Shown: piece after piece, positions 10,882 through 14,421 of the stretch | Layout: every line of letters starts with the position of its first letter | Numbering within the stretch: position 1 is the first letter of the stretch | Assembly: GCF_040784935.1 (NCBI RefSeq) | Contig: NZ_CP160680.1 | Coordinates: 2,409,501 to 2,473,500, forward strand | DNA length: 64,000 nucleotides | DNA from: Lewinella sp. LCG006 | Lineage (GTDB): Bacteria; Bacteroidota; Bacteroidia; Chitinophagales; Saprospiraceae | Direction: 5' to 3' | Notes under the pieces: model-generated | Told to the model about the DNA's origin: nothing | The model's database searches: none | Seen by the model: only the letters and a program-made list of their open reading frames with translations | Position numbers and translations under genes: made by a program

Positions 10882-13800
10882 CTAAGAGCGCTTCTCCACT
10901 GCAATCATCGCTTCCAATTCTCCGGGCAATTCCACGGCTTCGCCTCCGCTGGCATCGCCAATCAGCAAGGCGTCCGCTAGAACCTCTCCTTTGATCAAGT
11001 CACCAAAGTTGTTCACGGCGCGCTCAATGGCAGGATCATCACTGATCACTACGGTGATGCGATCCGTCACCTCAAAGTCCTTGTCTTTGCGGATATTCTG
11101 GATACGATTGACCAACTCGCGGGCCATGCCTTCGTCTTCCAAAAGTTCGGTTAGCGTCAAGTCCAGTGCTACCGTGAGTTTGCCATCGGTGGCTACTTTC
11201 CAGCCGGGGATGTCTTCCGTCGTGATCTCGAAATCCTCCATCGTCAGCTCGAAGTTTTCGTCGCCTACGACCAAGGTGTAAGTACCCGATTTTTCGAGCG
11301 CCGCAATATCCTCCTGACCAAATTGGTTGATCGCCTGCGCGGCAGCCTTCATGTTTTTACCCAAGCGCTTACCGAGCGTCTTGAAGTTGGGCTTGATCCG
11401 CTTTTTCAGGAAGCCTTCTTCATCGTCGCGTAGATAGGCAATTTCCTTCACGTTTACTTCGGCCAGGATCAGATCCTTGACCTCCTCTACCTGGTGTTCA
11501 AAACCGGCATCAAGCACCGGAAGTAAGATTTTCTGCAACGGCTGCCGAACCCGGATCATGTCCTTCTTACGGATACTGAGCACCAGACTGGAGATACGCT
11601 GAGCATAATCCATCCGTTCCTCCAGGCCGAGGTCAATCAGGGCTTCGTCGGCAGGCTCCAGCAAACTCAAGTGTACGGAGTCGTACTGCAGGCGAGAGCC
11701 TTCTTTTTTGGCTGCCTCCTTCACGCCTTCCGTAAGGTTGCAGTACAGCCAATCACTAAAGAACGGTGCTACTGGCGACATCAACTGAGCCGTTGTCACC
11801 AGGCATTCGTACAAGGTCTCGTAGGCGGCTTGCTTATCGGCATTCATCTCTCCTTTCCAGAAACGACGACGGCACAGGCGCACGTACCAGTTACTCAAGT
11901 GTTCATCAACAAAGCGTTCAACGGCACGGCAAGCCTTGGTAGGCTCGTAGGCCGAAAGCTGCTCCTGCACCTCTTTGGTCAGGCTGTTGAGTTTAGAGAT
12001 GATCCAACGATCAATTTCGGGGCGCTCGGCTACGGGGATGCTCTGTCCTGTTAATGGCTGCCATTCATCGATGTTAGCGTAAAGTGTAAAGAAGCTATAG
12101 GTATTGAACAGGGTACCGAACAATTTGCGGCGCACTTCTTCTATGCCTTCCAGGTCAAATTTGAGGTTATCCCAAGGATCGCTGTTGGCCATCATGTACC
12201 AGCGGGTAGCGTCAGCACCGTACTCTTTCAGGGTGTCAAATGGATCAGCGGCATTGCCCAATCGCTTCGACATTTTCTGTCCGTTTTTGTCCAGCACCAG
12301 TCCGTTAGAAACTACATTTTTGAACGATACGGTATCGTAGGCCATCACGGCAATGGCGTGCAGGGTGTAAAACCAACCACGGGTTTGATCTACGCCTTCG
12401 GCAATGAAGTTAGCGGGAAAACTTTGCTCAAAAGGAGCCTTGAAAGGCTGCTCGTCGCCGGCGGCCAGTTTTTCGTAGTCAAGTCCCCACTGGGCGTAAG
12501 GCATAGCACCTGAATCGAACCACACGTCGATTAGGTCCAGCTCGCGCTTCATCGTTTGGCCATCCTCGCTTACGAGTACAATCTCGTCGATGTAGGGGCG
12601 GTGGAGGTCTTTGGGAACTTGCTGGCTCAGCCCCAGCACTTTATTGGCTTTCTCCACCTCGCGGGTAAGTTCGGGGATAGAACCGATACAGATTTCTTGC
12701 TTGCCATCTTCGGTGCGCCAGATCGGCAGCGGGATACCCCAAAAGCGGGAACGACTCAGGTTCCAGTCTTGCAGGTTCTCCAGCCATTTTCCGAAACGAC
12801 CTTCACCCGTACTGACGGGCTTCCAGTTGATGGTCTTGTTGAGTTCCGACATGCGCTCCTTGTAATCACTGGCCCGTACAAACCAGCTGTCGAGCGGGTA
12901 GTACAGCACCGGGCGATCCGTCCGCCAGCAGTGAGGGTACGAGTGCAGGTATTTCTCCGAATGGAAAAGTTTGTTCTCTTCCTTGAGTTTGATCACGATG
13001 TCTACATCTGTGGGGCGCTCTTCCTCCTGGCCGTAGTCTTTTACGTAGCGGCCCGCAAAATCTGTGACTTCTGCCACAAATTTACCCTGGCGATCTACCA
13101 GTGGCATCGGGTTGCCAAATTCGTCTTTTACCAACAAGGCAGGGATGTCGTTCTCCTTGGCTACGCGCATATCATCCGCACCAAAGGTCGGTGCAATGTG
13201 TACGATCCCTGTACCGTCTTCCGTACTCACAAAGTCACCAACGATCACACGGAAAGCATCACCTTCGGGTTGAACGTAAGGCATCAGCTGTTCGTAGCGG
13301 GTACCCGCCAGTTCTTCCCCCGTCATCTCGGCGACGATCTCGATGTAAGGGTAAGGCTTGTTGCCGGGCTGCGCATCTGCGGCCGTCATATCGGGCTTGG
13401 CTTCCGAAAAATAGGCATTCAGCCGATCTTTTGCCAAAGTCACCAACATCGGTTCCTGCGTGTAGCGGTTGAAGGTGCGAACCTTCACGTAAGGAATCTT
13501 TTTGCCAACCGCCAGCGCTGTATTGGAAGGAAGGGTCCAGGGAGTGGTTGTCCACGCCAGGATGTACTCGTTGTCGGTACCCTTTACTTTAAATTGAGCT
13601 ACTGCCGAGGTGTCGCGGATTTCTTTGTAAGCACCCGGCATGTTCAGCTCGTGCGAACTCAGTCCCGTACCCGCAGCCGGAGAAAATGGCTGGATGGTAT
13701 ATCCTTTGTACATCAAACCCTTGCGGTGCAGGCGCTGCAAAAGGAACCATACCGACTCGATATAGCTGTTCTCGTAAGTGATGTAAGGATTGTCCAGGTC

Positions 13801-14223
13801 TACCCAGTAGCCCATCTTGCGGGTCAGGTCGTCCCAGATGTCCTTGTAGCGCATCACGGTTTCGCGGCACTTCTGGTTGTATTCGTCTACCGAAATTTTC
13901 TTGCCAATATCGTCCTTGGTGATGCCCAGTTCTTTCTCTACACTCAGTTCGATGGGCAAACCGTGCGTATCCCAGCCACCTTTACGGTCGACGCGCTCGC
14001 CTTGGAGCGTATGGAAGCGGCAGAAGATATCTTTGATGGCACGGGCCATGACGTGGTGAATACCGGGCAGGCCATTGGCCGACGGAGGGCCTTCATAAAA
14101 AACGTAAGTCTTCTCTGGATCGCGTTCCTGGATAGAGCGATCGAAGATGTTTTCGGTCTCCCAAAACCGGAGGATTTCCTGGTCGATCTCGGGTAAGTTC
14201 AGCTGTTTATACGACTTGTACAT
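10882..14223 (-). CDS. ileS: Isoleucine--tRNA ligase
   Basis: A 1113-residue class Ia synthetase that charges tRNA-Ile and edits mischarged Val. The HIGH-type motif is GIHH in PSANGLPGIHHVMARAI, and the KMSKS motif is KMSKRLGN. Between them is the large CP1 editing domain (LAWTTTPWTLPSNTALAVG). The C-terminal third is the anticodon-binding domain and a long tail, as in the eukaryote-like IleRS group. The start is the ATG at 14223. The gene is preceded on the same strand by an isoleucine leader peptide and a terminator-like hairpin (14271-14307), which strongly suggests attenuation control by charged tRNA-Ile. A terminator follows the stop. Confidence 0.97.
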   Translation of the reverse strand: MYKSYKQLNLPEIDQEILRFWETENIFDRSIQERDPEKTYVFYEGPPSANGLPGIHHVMARAIKDIFCRFHTLQGERVDRKGGWDTHGLPIELSVEKELGITKDDIGKKISVDEYNQKCRETVMRYKDIWDDLTRKMGYWVDLDNPYITYENSYIESVWFLLQRLHRKGLMYKGYTIQPFSPAAGTGLSSHELNMPGAYKEIRDTSAVAQFKVKGTDNEYILAWTTTPWTLPSNTALAVGKKIPYVKVRTFNRYTQEPMLVTLAKDRLNAYFSEAKPDMTAADAQPGNKPYPYIEIVAEMTGEELAGTRYEQLMPYVQPEGDAFRVIVGDFVSTEDGTGIVHIAPTFGADDMRVAKENDIPALLVKDEFGNPMPLVDRQGKFVAEVTDFAGRYVKDYGQEEERPTDVDIVIKLKEENKLFHSEKYLHSYPHCWRTDRPVLYYPLDSWFVRASDYKERMSELNKTINWKPVSTGEGRFGKWLENLQDWNLSRSRFWGIPLPIWRTEDGKQEICIGSIPELTREVEKANKVLGLSQQVPKDLHRPYIDEIVLVSEDGQTMKRELDLIDVWFDSGAMPYAQWGLDYEKLAAGDEQPFKAPFEQSFPANFIAEGVDQTRGWFYTLHAIAVMAYDTVSFKNVVSNGLVLDKNGQKMSKRLGNAADPFDTLKEYGADATRWYMMANSDPWDNLKFDLEGIEEVRRKLFGTLFNTYSFFTLYANIDEWQPLTGQSIPVAERPEIDRWIISKLNSLTKEVQEQLSAYEPTKACRAVERFVDEHLSNWYVRLCRRRFWKGEMNADKQAAYETLYECLVTTAQLMSPVAPFFSDWLYCNLTEGVKEAAKKEGSRLQYDSVHLSLLEPADEALIDLGLEERMDYAQRISSLVLSIRKKDMIRVRQPLQKILLPVLDAGFEHQVEEVKDLILAEVNVKEIAYLRDDEEGFLKKRIKPNFKTLGKRLGKNMKAAAQAINQFGQEDIAALEKSGTYTLVVGDENFELTMEDFEITTEDIPGWKVATDGKLTVALDLTLTELLEDEGMARELVNRIQNIRKDKDFEVTDRITVVISDDPAIERAVNNFGDLIKGEVLADALLIGDASGGEAVELPGELEAMIAVEKRS

Positions 14224-14256
14224 CGGTAGCGTACGGTTAGTTTTTCAATGAATGTG

Positions 14257-14264
14257 CAAAAGTA
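14257..14264 (-). promoter_or_regulatory. Possible second ileS promoter (-7 box)
   Basis: TACTTTTG, an exact TAnnTTTG match, lies between the attenuator hairpin and the ileS ATG. No TTG is found 19-21 bp upstream. If used, it would give basal ileS transcription that escapes attenuation. Confidence 0.35.
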
Positions 14265-14270
14265 CAAAAC

Positions 14271-14307
14271 AAAAAGCTCCGACAGAGGCCATCTGTCGGA
14301 GCTTTTT
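14271..14307 (-). terminator. ileS attenuator hairpin
   Basis: A perfect 16-bp stem (14271-14286 with 14292-14307) with a 5-nt loop, followed on the minus strand by U5-G-U4. It lies between the isoleucine leader peptide and ileS. The 5' half (14291-14299, CCGACAGAT) can instead pair 8 of 9 bases with ATCTGTAGG (14326-14334), which contains the leader peptide stop codon. The two structures exclude each other, as a terminator and antiterminator should. Confidence 0.85.
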
Positions 14308-14326
14308 GAATAGCAAAAATTAGCAC

Positions 14327-14386
14327 CTACAGATCGCCGGGCGAACTGATAATAATAATGCTAATAATTATACTTTGCTGTTGCAT
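14327..14386 (-). CDS. Isoleucine leader peptide of ileS (19 residues)
   Basis: The minus strand reads MQQQSIIISIIIISSPGDL and stops with TAG. Seven of 19 codons are Ile, in runs of three (ATA ATT ATT) and four (ATT ATT ATT ATC), directly upstream of ileS. A stalled ribosome on the Ile run would leave 14326-14334 free to form the antiterminator. A ribosome reaching the stop codon would cover it and let the terminator form. A further pairing links codons of the peptide (14374-14379, 14359-14364) with the bases just after the stop (14312-14317, 14320-14325), as a segment 1:2 hairpin. The ATG is only four bases past a -7 box, so the transcript may be leaderless. No homology is claimed; the call rests on composition, position and RNA layout. 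Confidence 0.82.
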   Translation of the reverse strand: MQQQSIIISIIIISSPGDL

Positions 14387-14390
14387 GTGG

Positions 14391-14421
14391 CGAATATAGG
14401 TGTTTTTTGGAGATGGGGCAA
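14391..14421 (-). promoter_or_regulatory. Promoter of the ileS leader transcript
   Basis: On the minus strand a TTG (14419-14421) is followed after exactly 20 bases by TATATTCG (14391-14398), close to TAnnTTTG (one mismatch). Transcription would begin at or next to the leader peptide ATG. Confidence 0.55.

Follow-up and report, generated by a model that had tools for sequence, protein, structure and literature searches.

A probable isoleucine leader-peptide attenuator upstream of the isoleucyl-tRNA synthetase gene in Saprospiraceae

Introduction

The isoleucyl-tRNA synthetase gene (ileS) of Lewinella sp. LCG006 is preceded by a short reading frame rich in isoleucine codons and by a perfect hairpin with a U-rich 3' side. 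The question raised by this locus is whether, and by what route, these elements would couple the transcription of ileS to the supply of charged tRNA-Ile. The whole stretch of DNA analysed (64,000 nucleotides, positions 2,409,501 to 2,473,500 of contig NZ_CP160680.1) is referred to as the window.

Leader-peptide attenuators are known from amino-acid operons of the trp, his, leu, thr and ilv types, and pheST of E. coli is a case of a synthetase gene with such an attenuator. T-box riboswitches bind tRNA directly and have no leader ORF. A first-pass annotation of the window had read the locus as a leader-peptide attenuator, in which uncharged tRNA-Ile stalls the ribosome on isoleucine codons, an antiterminator forms and ileS is read.

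Results

Organization of the locus

The features of the locus, all on the minus strand, are as follows.

14391..14421, minus strand: predicted promoter P1, with TTG at 14421-14419, a spacer of 20 nt and the -7 box TATATTCG at 14398-14391
14327..14386, minus strand: leader ORF MQQQSIIISIIIISSPGDL, ATG at 14386-14384, 19 codons, TAG at 14329-14327
14357..14365, minus strand: segment 1, ATTAGCATT, leader codons 8-10, partner of segment 1'
14326..14334, minus strand: segment 2, ATCTGTAGG, 5' strand of the antiterminator core, across the leader stop codon
14319..14327, minus strand: segment 1', GGTGCTAAT, partner of segment 1, a pairing whose loop holds the core of segment 2
14291..14299, minus strand: segment 3, CCGACAGAT, 3' strand of the antiterminator core, lying within the terminator 5' arm except for its last base
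14271..14307, minus strand: intrinsic terminator, 16 perfect base pairs, loop TGGCC, U-rich 3' side
14257..14264, minus strand: candidate promoter P2, -7 box TACTTTTG, 3' of the terminator
10882..14223, minus strand: ileS, isoleucyl-tRNA synthetase, 1113 aa, TIGR00392

The leader ORF carries seven isoleucine codons (ATA ATT ATT, then AGC, then ATT ATT ATT ATC in the minus-strand reading). The terminator comprises a 5' arm (14307-14292), a loop (14291-14287) and a 3' arm (14286-14271), with 47 bases between its end and the start of ileS, whose identity is given by TIGR00392 at 964 bits against a cut-off of 621. Part of segment 1' also lies within the extended form of the antiterminator described below.

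The first-pass annotation had located a promoter-like TTG-N20-TATATTCG and a 19-codon frame with seven isoleucine codons that stops at 14327, and both are correct to the base. Its 16-bp hairpin with a U-rich tail, followed by ileS, is borne out by the coordinates 14307-14271 and 14223-10882, and the alternative pairing that it placed over the peptide stop, ATCTGTAGG with CCGACAGAT, has eight of nine possible pairs, with one A-G mismatch. Three elements are added here: a third helix (ATTAGCATT:GGTGCTAAT), a second -7 box (TACTTTTG) and a predicted P1 start site at the leader AUG.

Occurrence of the frame and terminator before ileS

The regions upstream of ileS were screened for an ATG-initiated ORF of 8-45 codons with at least four isoleucines in 12 codons, followed by a hairpin and a T-run. 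In this unselected comparison, two of 159 unique upstream regions were too short, leaving 157, and 15 loci without an ileS start were left out. The combination was present before 36 of the 157 ileS genes and in none of the sequences of five dinucleotide-shuffled sets. When the same screen was run for other residues, the next best was serine (4 of 157). Among 382 other ORFs of the same loci, four were preceded by an isoleucine-rich ORF and terminator; three of these, two from L056 and one from L115, are attenuator copies before genes inserted near ileS, and the fourth is spurious. Judged by these counts, the occurrence of an isoleucine-rich ORF and terminator before ileS is far beyond chance. 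The predicted folding of the 118-nt leader of the window is likewise unusual: its energy of -46.4 kcal/mol (z -6.9) was not attained by any of 200 dinucleotide shuffles, which gave -24 +/- 3.25.

Competing helices

A curated set of 49 attenuators was obtained from 57 isoleucine-dense ORFs by removing eight by eye (L079, L115, L119, L138, L162, L171, L173 and L178) and was then aligned; the first two bases of the ATG are missing from the row of the window. In L115 the real attenuator lies farther upstream, behind an inserted gene. Across the alignment, 93.8% of the cells of the terminator were paired and 80 were double-changed, while in the antiterminator core the corresponding values were 87.1% and 28; in both helices, none of 500 shuffles matched either value. 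Two measures were weaker, namely the number of pairs with a double change, matched by 5 and 7 of the 500 shuffles, and the number of further pair types in the antiterminator, matched by 1 of 500.

Since kinship inflates shuffle results of this kind, an alignment-free permutation test was added. Pairing of segment 2 with segment 3 was better within sequences than in all 5000 permutations across sequences, and so was pairing of segment 1 with segment 1', both among 43 representatives and in all 49. Compensatory examples include AACTTGT/ACAAGTT in L106 and GTCCGT/ACGGAC in L065 and L142. By alignment or permutation, the terminator, the antiterminator and the 1:1' helix all covary. The upstream comparison proposed in the first-pass annotation was thus carried out, and the competing stems are kept, with covariation, in most of the 49 attenuators. 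When the best helix was picked automatically, 43 of 49 sequences had segment 2 within the loop closed by segments 1 and 1'. A variant was seen in L100, L149 and L187, where the partner of the antiterminator (CAGATTACA or CAGATTGCAA) is located not in the arm of the terminator but in its loop.

In the window, the antiterminator takes in segment 1' and reaches as far as the A-run in the arm of the terminator, and this extended structure is predicted at -22.5 kcal/mol when a ribosome is masked on codon 6, 8 or 10. The folding of RNAs cut before the 3' arm was also predicted for the whole set. The 2:3 helix formed in 49 of 49 sequences when a ribosome was placed in the middle of the isoleucine run, and in 17 of 49 when it was placed at the stop codon. 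These results are consistent with attenuation by stalling, in part by geometry, since a ribosome at the stop codon hides segment 2. Without a ribosome, 30 of the 49 cut RNAs, that of the window included, formed the antiterminator, so that the protecting 1:1' helix is not clearly the stronger of the two.

Proposed mechanism

The anatomy of the element, its conservation, the covariation of the three helices and the position directly before ileS of most strong matches with a visible downstream gene are matters of observation. From these sequence features we infer ribosome stalling, termination, promoter activity and a response to isoleucine. The element most probably acts as a ribosome-mediated transcription attenuator that would raise ileS expression when charged tRNA-Ile falls, a reading to which we assign a probability of about 0.87.

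Transcription would begin at P1, predicted to lie at the leader AUG, with the ribosome close behind RNA polymerase. When Ile-tRNA is plentiful, the ribosome would proceed to the stop codon and cover segment 2, leaving segment 3 to pair with the 3' arm, and transcription would stop before ileS. When Ile-tRNA is scarce, the ribosome would stall in the isoleucine run and cover segment 1; segment 2 and part of segment 1' could then pair with segment 3, the terminator would not form and ileS would be transcribed. A basal supply of ileS would probably come from the second promoter just past the terminator.

This reading, which the first-pass annotation had put forward for the single locus, gains support from the isoleucine frame and terminator found in 49 relatives, with compensatory changes in the stems. 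The accompanying proposal that ileS is read through formation of the antiterminator is supported by the comparison, with the refinement that ileS probably also has a promoter of its own behind the terminator.

Predicted promoters on both sides of the terminator

The Bacteroidota -7 box TAnnTTTG spans -12 to -5 in F. psychrophilum (PMC9723704, in the part of the text available). In the window, the P1 box ends 4 nt 5' of the leader ATG, and this gap, combined with the -12 to -5 placing, makes the A of the leader AUG (14386) the predicted P1 start (+1). Of the 49 attenuators, 34 have an exact TAnnTTTG in the 60 nt that precede the leader ATG, against a shuffle mean of 2.5 and maximum of 6. A relaxed box was found in 45 of 49, with TTG exactly 20 nt upstream in 29 of these 45. 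The gap between box and ATG among the 45 was 4-8 nt in 18 cases and at least 16 nt in 27. In the genus of the window the gaps are 4-5 nt, and the leader ORF is predicted to begin at about the 5' end of the transcript, within a base or so.

The predicted start of P2 is at 14252, 29 nt before the ileS ATG. TAnnTTTG boxes follow the terminator at a distance of up to 70 nt in 35 of the 49 attenuators, against a shuffle mean of 3.5 and maximum of 10, and 13 of these 35 have TTG 19-20 nt upstream. Given such boxes behind the terminator, attenuation is unlikely to be the sole source of ileS transcripts. P2 would probably provide the basal supply of ileS, to which P1 and the attenuator would add a regulated share.

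P2 counts against the main reading in that it would let ileS bypass the attenuator. Taken further, P2 might drive ileS almost wholly, with P1 giving rise to a short, terminated leader RNA of little consequence for ileS. Besides the frequency of boxes past the terminator and the TTG upstream of some, two relatives inspected that lack the attenuator (L016 and L048) retain a TAnnTTTG-type box before ileS, as would be expected on that account. Against it, a useless read-through would not keep both competing helices together with the isoleucine frame. Moreover, TTG at the usual spacing upstream of P2 is absent in all four genomes of the window's genus, and in 14 of the 49 attenuators an exact P2 box is missing from the 70 nt that follow the terminator. 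We regard such dominance of P2 as improbable.

Codon content of the leader

The leaders of the 49 relatives average 5.9 isoleucines per 18.9 codons, a content that is high by construction, since the set was chosen for at least four isoleucines in 12 codons. The isoleucine codons vary synonymously (ATT 194, ATA 56, ATC 41), and counts by frame in the 49 attenuators were 291 in the leader frame versus 92 and 30 in the other two. ATA is the first isoleucine codon in 29 of 49 leaders, yet it accounts for only 1 of the 63 isoleucine codons of the window's ileS, so that the minor tRNA-Ile may be sensed as well. Over all loci, ATA makes up 19% of the leader isoleucine codons and 13% in the available stretches of ileS. 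Sensing of serine was ruled out, since relatives differ at the middle of the run, where S, N, R, G or D may stand.

That the frame is kept as codons also bears on the idea that isoleucine is sensed without translation of the frame, by a T-box or by some other leader that binds tRNA or a ligand. T-boxes of ileS do exist in other phyla, translational ones being described in Actinobacteria (PMC1262725, available portion), but Rfam lends no support here: no match over the window reached its gathering score, and the 12 weak matches obtained when E was relaxed to 5 include no T-box. A leader of this type is accordingly very improbable. The best of the weak matches was Thr_leader (RF00506), which is likewise an attenuator with a leader peptide, at 27.7 bits against a curated threshold of 55; this assignment fails because the score is below the threshold, the gene is ileS and the codons are those of isoleucine.

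The remaining alternative, an ordinary terminator of the upstream gene combined with a chance AT-rich frame, has in its favour an ORF upstream of the leader on the same strand as ileS (15639-14590), but it is contradicted by the comparative data and can be practically dismissed in view of the shuffles and control regions, the covariation of the antiterminator, and the finding that, by mechanical ORF calls of which a few are doubtful, 19 of 36 attenuator loci have their nearest upstream ORF on the opposite strand.

Distribution in the family, order and phylum

When 91 ileS proteins were placed on a FastTree tree, the 41 rows that bear an attenuator (38 curated, together with L056, L074 and L115 recovered by covariance model) were all members of one clade of 65 rows. 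The distribution requires 14 changes on the tree, at least 12 of them forced by well-supported branches, versus 30 in shuffles. The conservation in close relatives that the first-pass annotation had called for holds in the window's own genus, where all four genomes examined (L009-L012) keep the frame, the terminator and the antiterminator strand; it does not extend to the clade as a whole, in which the attenuator is absent, by the criteria used, from 24 of the 65 rows. Among the relatives, Lewinella cohaerens DSM 23179 (L039) has an intact element. A single attenuator-bearing clade with gaps is most simply read as one origin followed by many losses, as far as the ileS tree indicates.

Of 398 family genomes, 134 had a match to the covariance model at E up to 1e-5 and 194 at E up to 0.01, the latter tally including chance matches, since the weak matches that were fetched often lack ileS. 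Weak matches were often plain terminators. Among 20 match places fetched, four were before ileS with an isoleucine-containing leader (three with at least four isoleucines in 12 codons, one with three) and 16 were without ileS. Eight of the 20 were the best match of a family genome, and these were divided equally between four such leaders and four without. Most of the strong matches with a visible downstream gene are located directly before ileS; the remainder precede ilvD, genes adjoining ileS or genes near contig ends. In the genome of the window, the ileS copy was the sole strong match, and the next (E 0.026) had no isoleucine leader.

In the search of the order, 65 of 396 genomes gave matches at E up to 0.001, 59 from the family and six from other families. 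None of the latter six, which belong to the 16 places without ileS, was before that gene, and one (L362) showed an ORF with four isoleucines in 12 codons before unrelated genes. The search of the phylum gave matches in 36 of 395 genomes at E up to 0.01, and in 18 inspected loci from outside the family the downstream genes were named from their translations. Isoleucine- or isoleucine/valine-rich leaders were found in L319-L322 and L331, where the gene that follows resembles a branched-chain aminotransferase and is succeeded by an ilvD-like gene (an ilvE-ilvD-like arrangement), and a leader of this kind lies before an ORF read as the acetolactate synthase small subunit in L328. Histidine leaders preceded a hisG-like gene in L324 and L325, and an isoleucine/threonine leader preceded an aspartokinase-like gene in L332. 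Half (9 of 18) of the extra-family loci inspected had no recognisable leader.

Two further family loci, L250 and L252, carry isoleucine/valine-rich leaders (MKRNINIIINIIVVIIQCTT and MNQLVNIIIVSIIIRTIYSL, respectively) and terminators before ilvD (Pfam). In the window's genome, a candidate histidine leader (MNLTFVHHHHSGFAFAANGDLMRA, with HHHH), followed by a hairpin and T-run, was observed before hisG (L338), close behind a tRNA-Phe gene. No leader peptide was found in that genome before valS, ilvD, pheS, thrS or leuS.

Copies of the unit and inserted genes

An attenuator was in view for 97 ileS genes; it lay within 300 nt of the gene in 80 of them and farther away in 17, a proportion (17/97) that is biased because the loci come from stronger matches and multi-copy genomes were chosen on purpose. 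The ORFs that intervene, or that follow an attenuator at a contig end, include some of toxin-antitoxin or restriction type; they were assigned by Pfam to Uma2, VapB, PIN, Fic, DUF433/DUF5615, SIR2, Abi_C, HepT-like with nucleotidyltransferase, DUF5131, Endonuclease V and IS200 transposase, and several were without a match. ORFs between the nearest attenuator and ileS were seen in fifteen loci (L244, L257, L263, L265, L269, L276, L278, L279, L290, L292, L295, L300, L307, L315 and L318), with Pfam matches to VapB/PIN, Fic, SIR2, Abi_C, Uma2, Endonuclease V and IS200 transposase, and several with none.

Several loci carry more than one copy of the promoter-attenuator unit: five in L239, two each in L240, L241 and L242, and two in L056, one of them degraded. 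Uma2, Fic, PIN, UPF0175 or other genes lie between the copies in these five loci, and in L242 the ORF between the copies is on the opposite strand. The copies are 97.4% identical over 227 bp in L241, 96.2% over 156 bp in L242, 83.6% over 165 bp in L240, 80.6% over 175 bp in L056, and 78.8% to 93.5% over 137-170 bp in L239. Two copies in L239 continue to match through the adjoining Uma2 genes (73% over 883 bp), and the repeat of L241 begins in the P1 region and ends near the start codon. The isoleucine frame is not intact in every copy.

A tentative and rather unlikely extension is that in this family the promoter-attenuator-5'UTR unit forms a portable regulatory module, in which copies of about 155-227 bp, as many as five in succession, directly before Uma2 nuclease, Fic and other genes near ileS would switch on toxin-antitoxin or restriction-like genes when charged Ile-tRNA is depleted. 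If this were true, the depletion serving as trigger might arise, for example, from starvation or from tRNA-cutting enzymes.

Discussion

The element resembles the attenuators of amino-acid operons in its short ORF rich in the regulating codon, with the stop over segment 2, and in its mutually exclusive antiterminator and terminator, the latter with a U-run. It differs in its target, a tRNA synthetase rather than a biosynthetic operon, in the location of segment 2 in the 1:1' loop (by automatic pick, in the 43 of 49 cases given above), and in the leader ORF, which in the window's genus is predicted to begin at about the 5' end of the transcript. The cognate-codon leader peptide before a tRNA-synthetase gene is shared with pheST and with trpS and leuS, although here the synthetase and the phylum are different and one ancestral-looking element extends across a Bacteroidota family. 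The attenuators of trpS and leuS are predicted for Streptomyces, in the Actinobacteria (PMC1262725, available portion). The ileS T-boxes regulate ileS by the charging of tRNA-Ile, as is proposed here for the present element, in which the Rfam search revealed no T-box.

Closer in phylogeny, clues of leader-peptide attenuation before amino-acid operons have been given for F. psychrophilum (PMC9723704), and the Bacteroid-trp RNA is described from Bacteroidota (PMC2864571). Both are from the same phylum, and the first appears to propose the same mechanism; the available parts of the two papers concern amino-acid biosynthesis and do not name ileS. The branched-chain operon of S. aureus has a leucine-rich attenuator peptide (PMC5794164, available portion), and branched-chain codons are thus common to both cases; there, the target is a biosynthetic operon in a Firmicute. 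The main text of a survey of premature terminators (PMC2965389) contains no word beginning with ileS or Bacteroid.

The first-pass annotation knew of no described case for ileS in Bacteroidota, and no leader-peptide attenuator of ileS was present among the literature matches listed, most subscription papers being beyond reach. Lopatovskaya et al. (2010), cited in PMC4833913, reportedly treated attenuation of amino-acid and aminoacyl-tRNA operons, and their work may bear on ileS. Leaders for amino-acid genes occur in several parts of Bacteroidota, and it is ileS that would be the new target; the best reading of the sequence comparisons is that of a known mechanism with ileS as its apparently new target.

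Isoleucyl-tRNA synthetase would in this way join the genes apparently under translated-leader control, in a phylum, Bacteroidota, with unusual signals for transcription and translation. One ancestral-looking element with many losses would render the evolution of an attenuator traceable. In Saprospiraceae, the leader would constitute a natural reporter of the charging of Ile-tRNA, and hence of inhibitors of IleRS.
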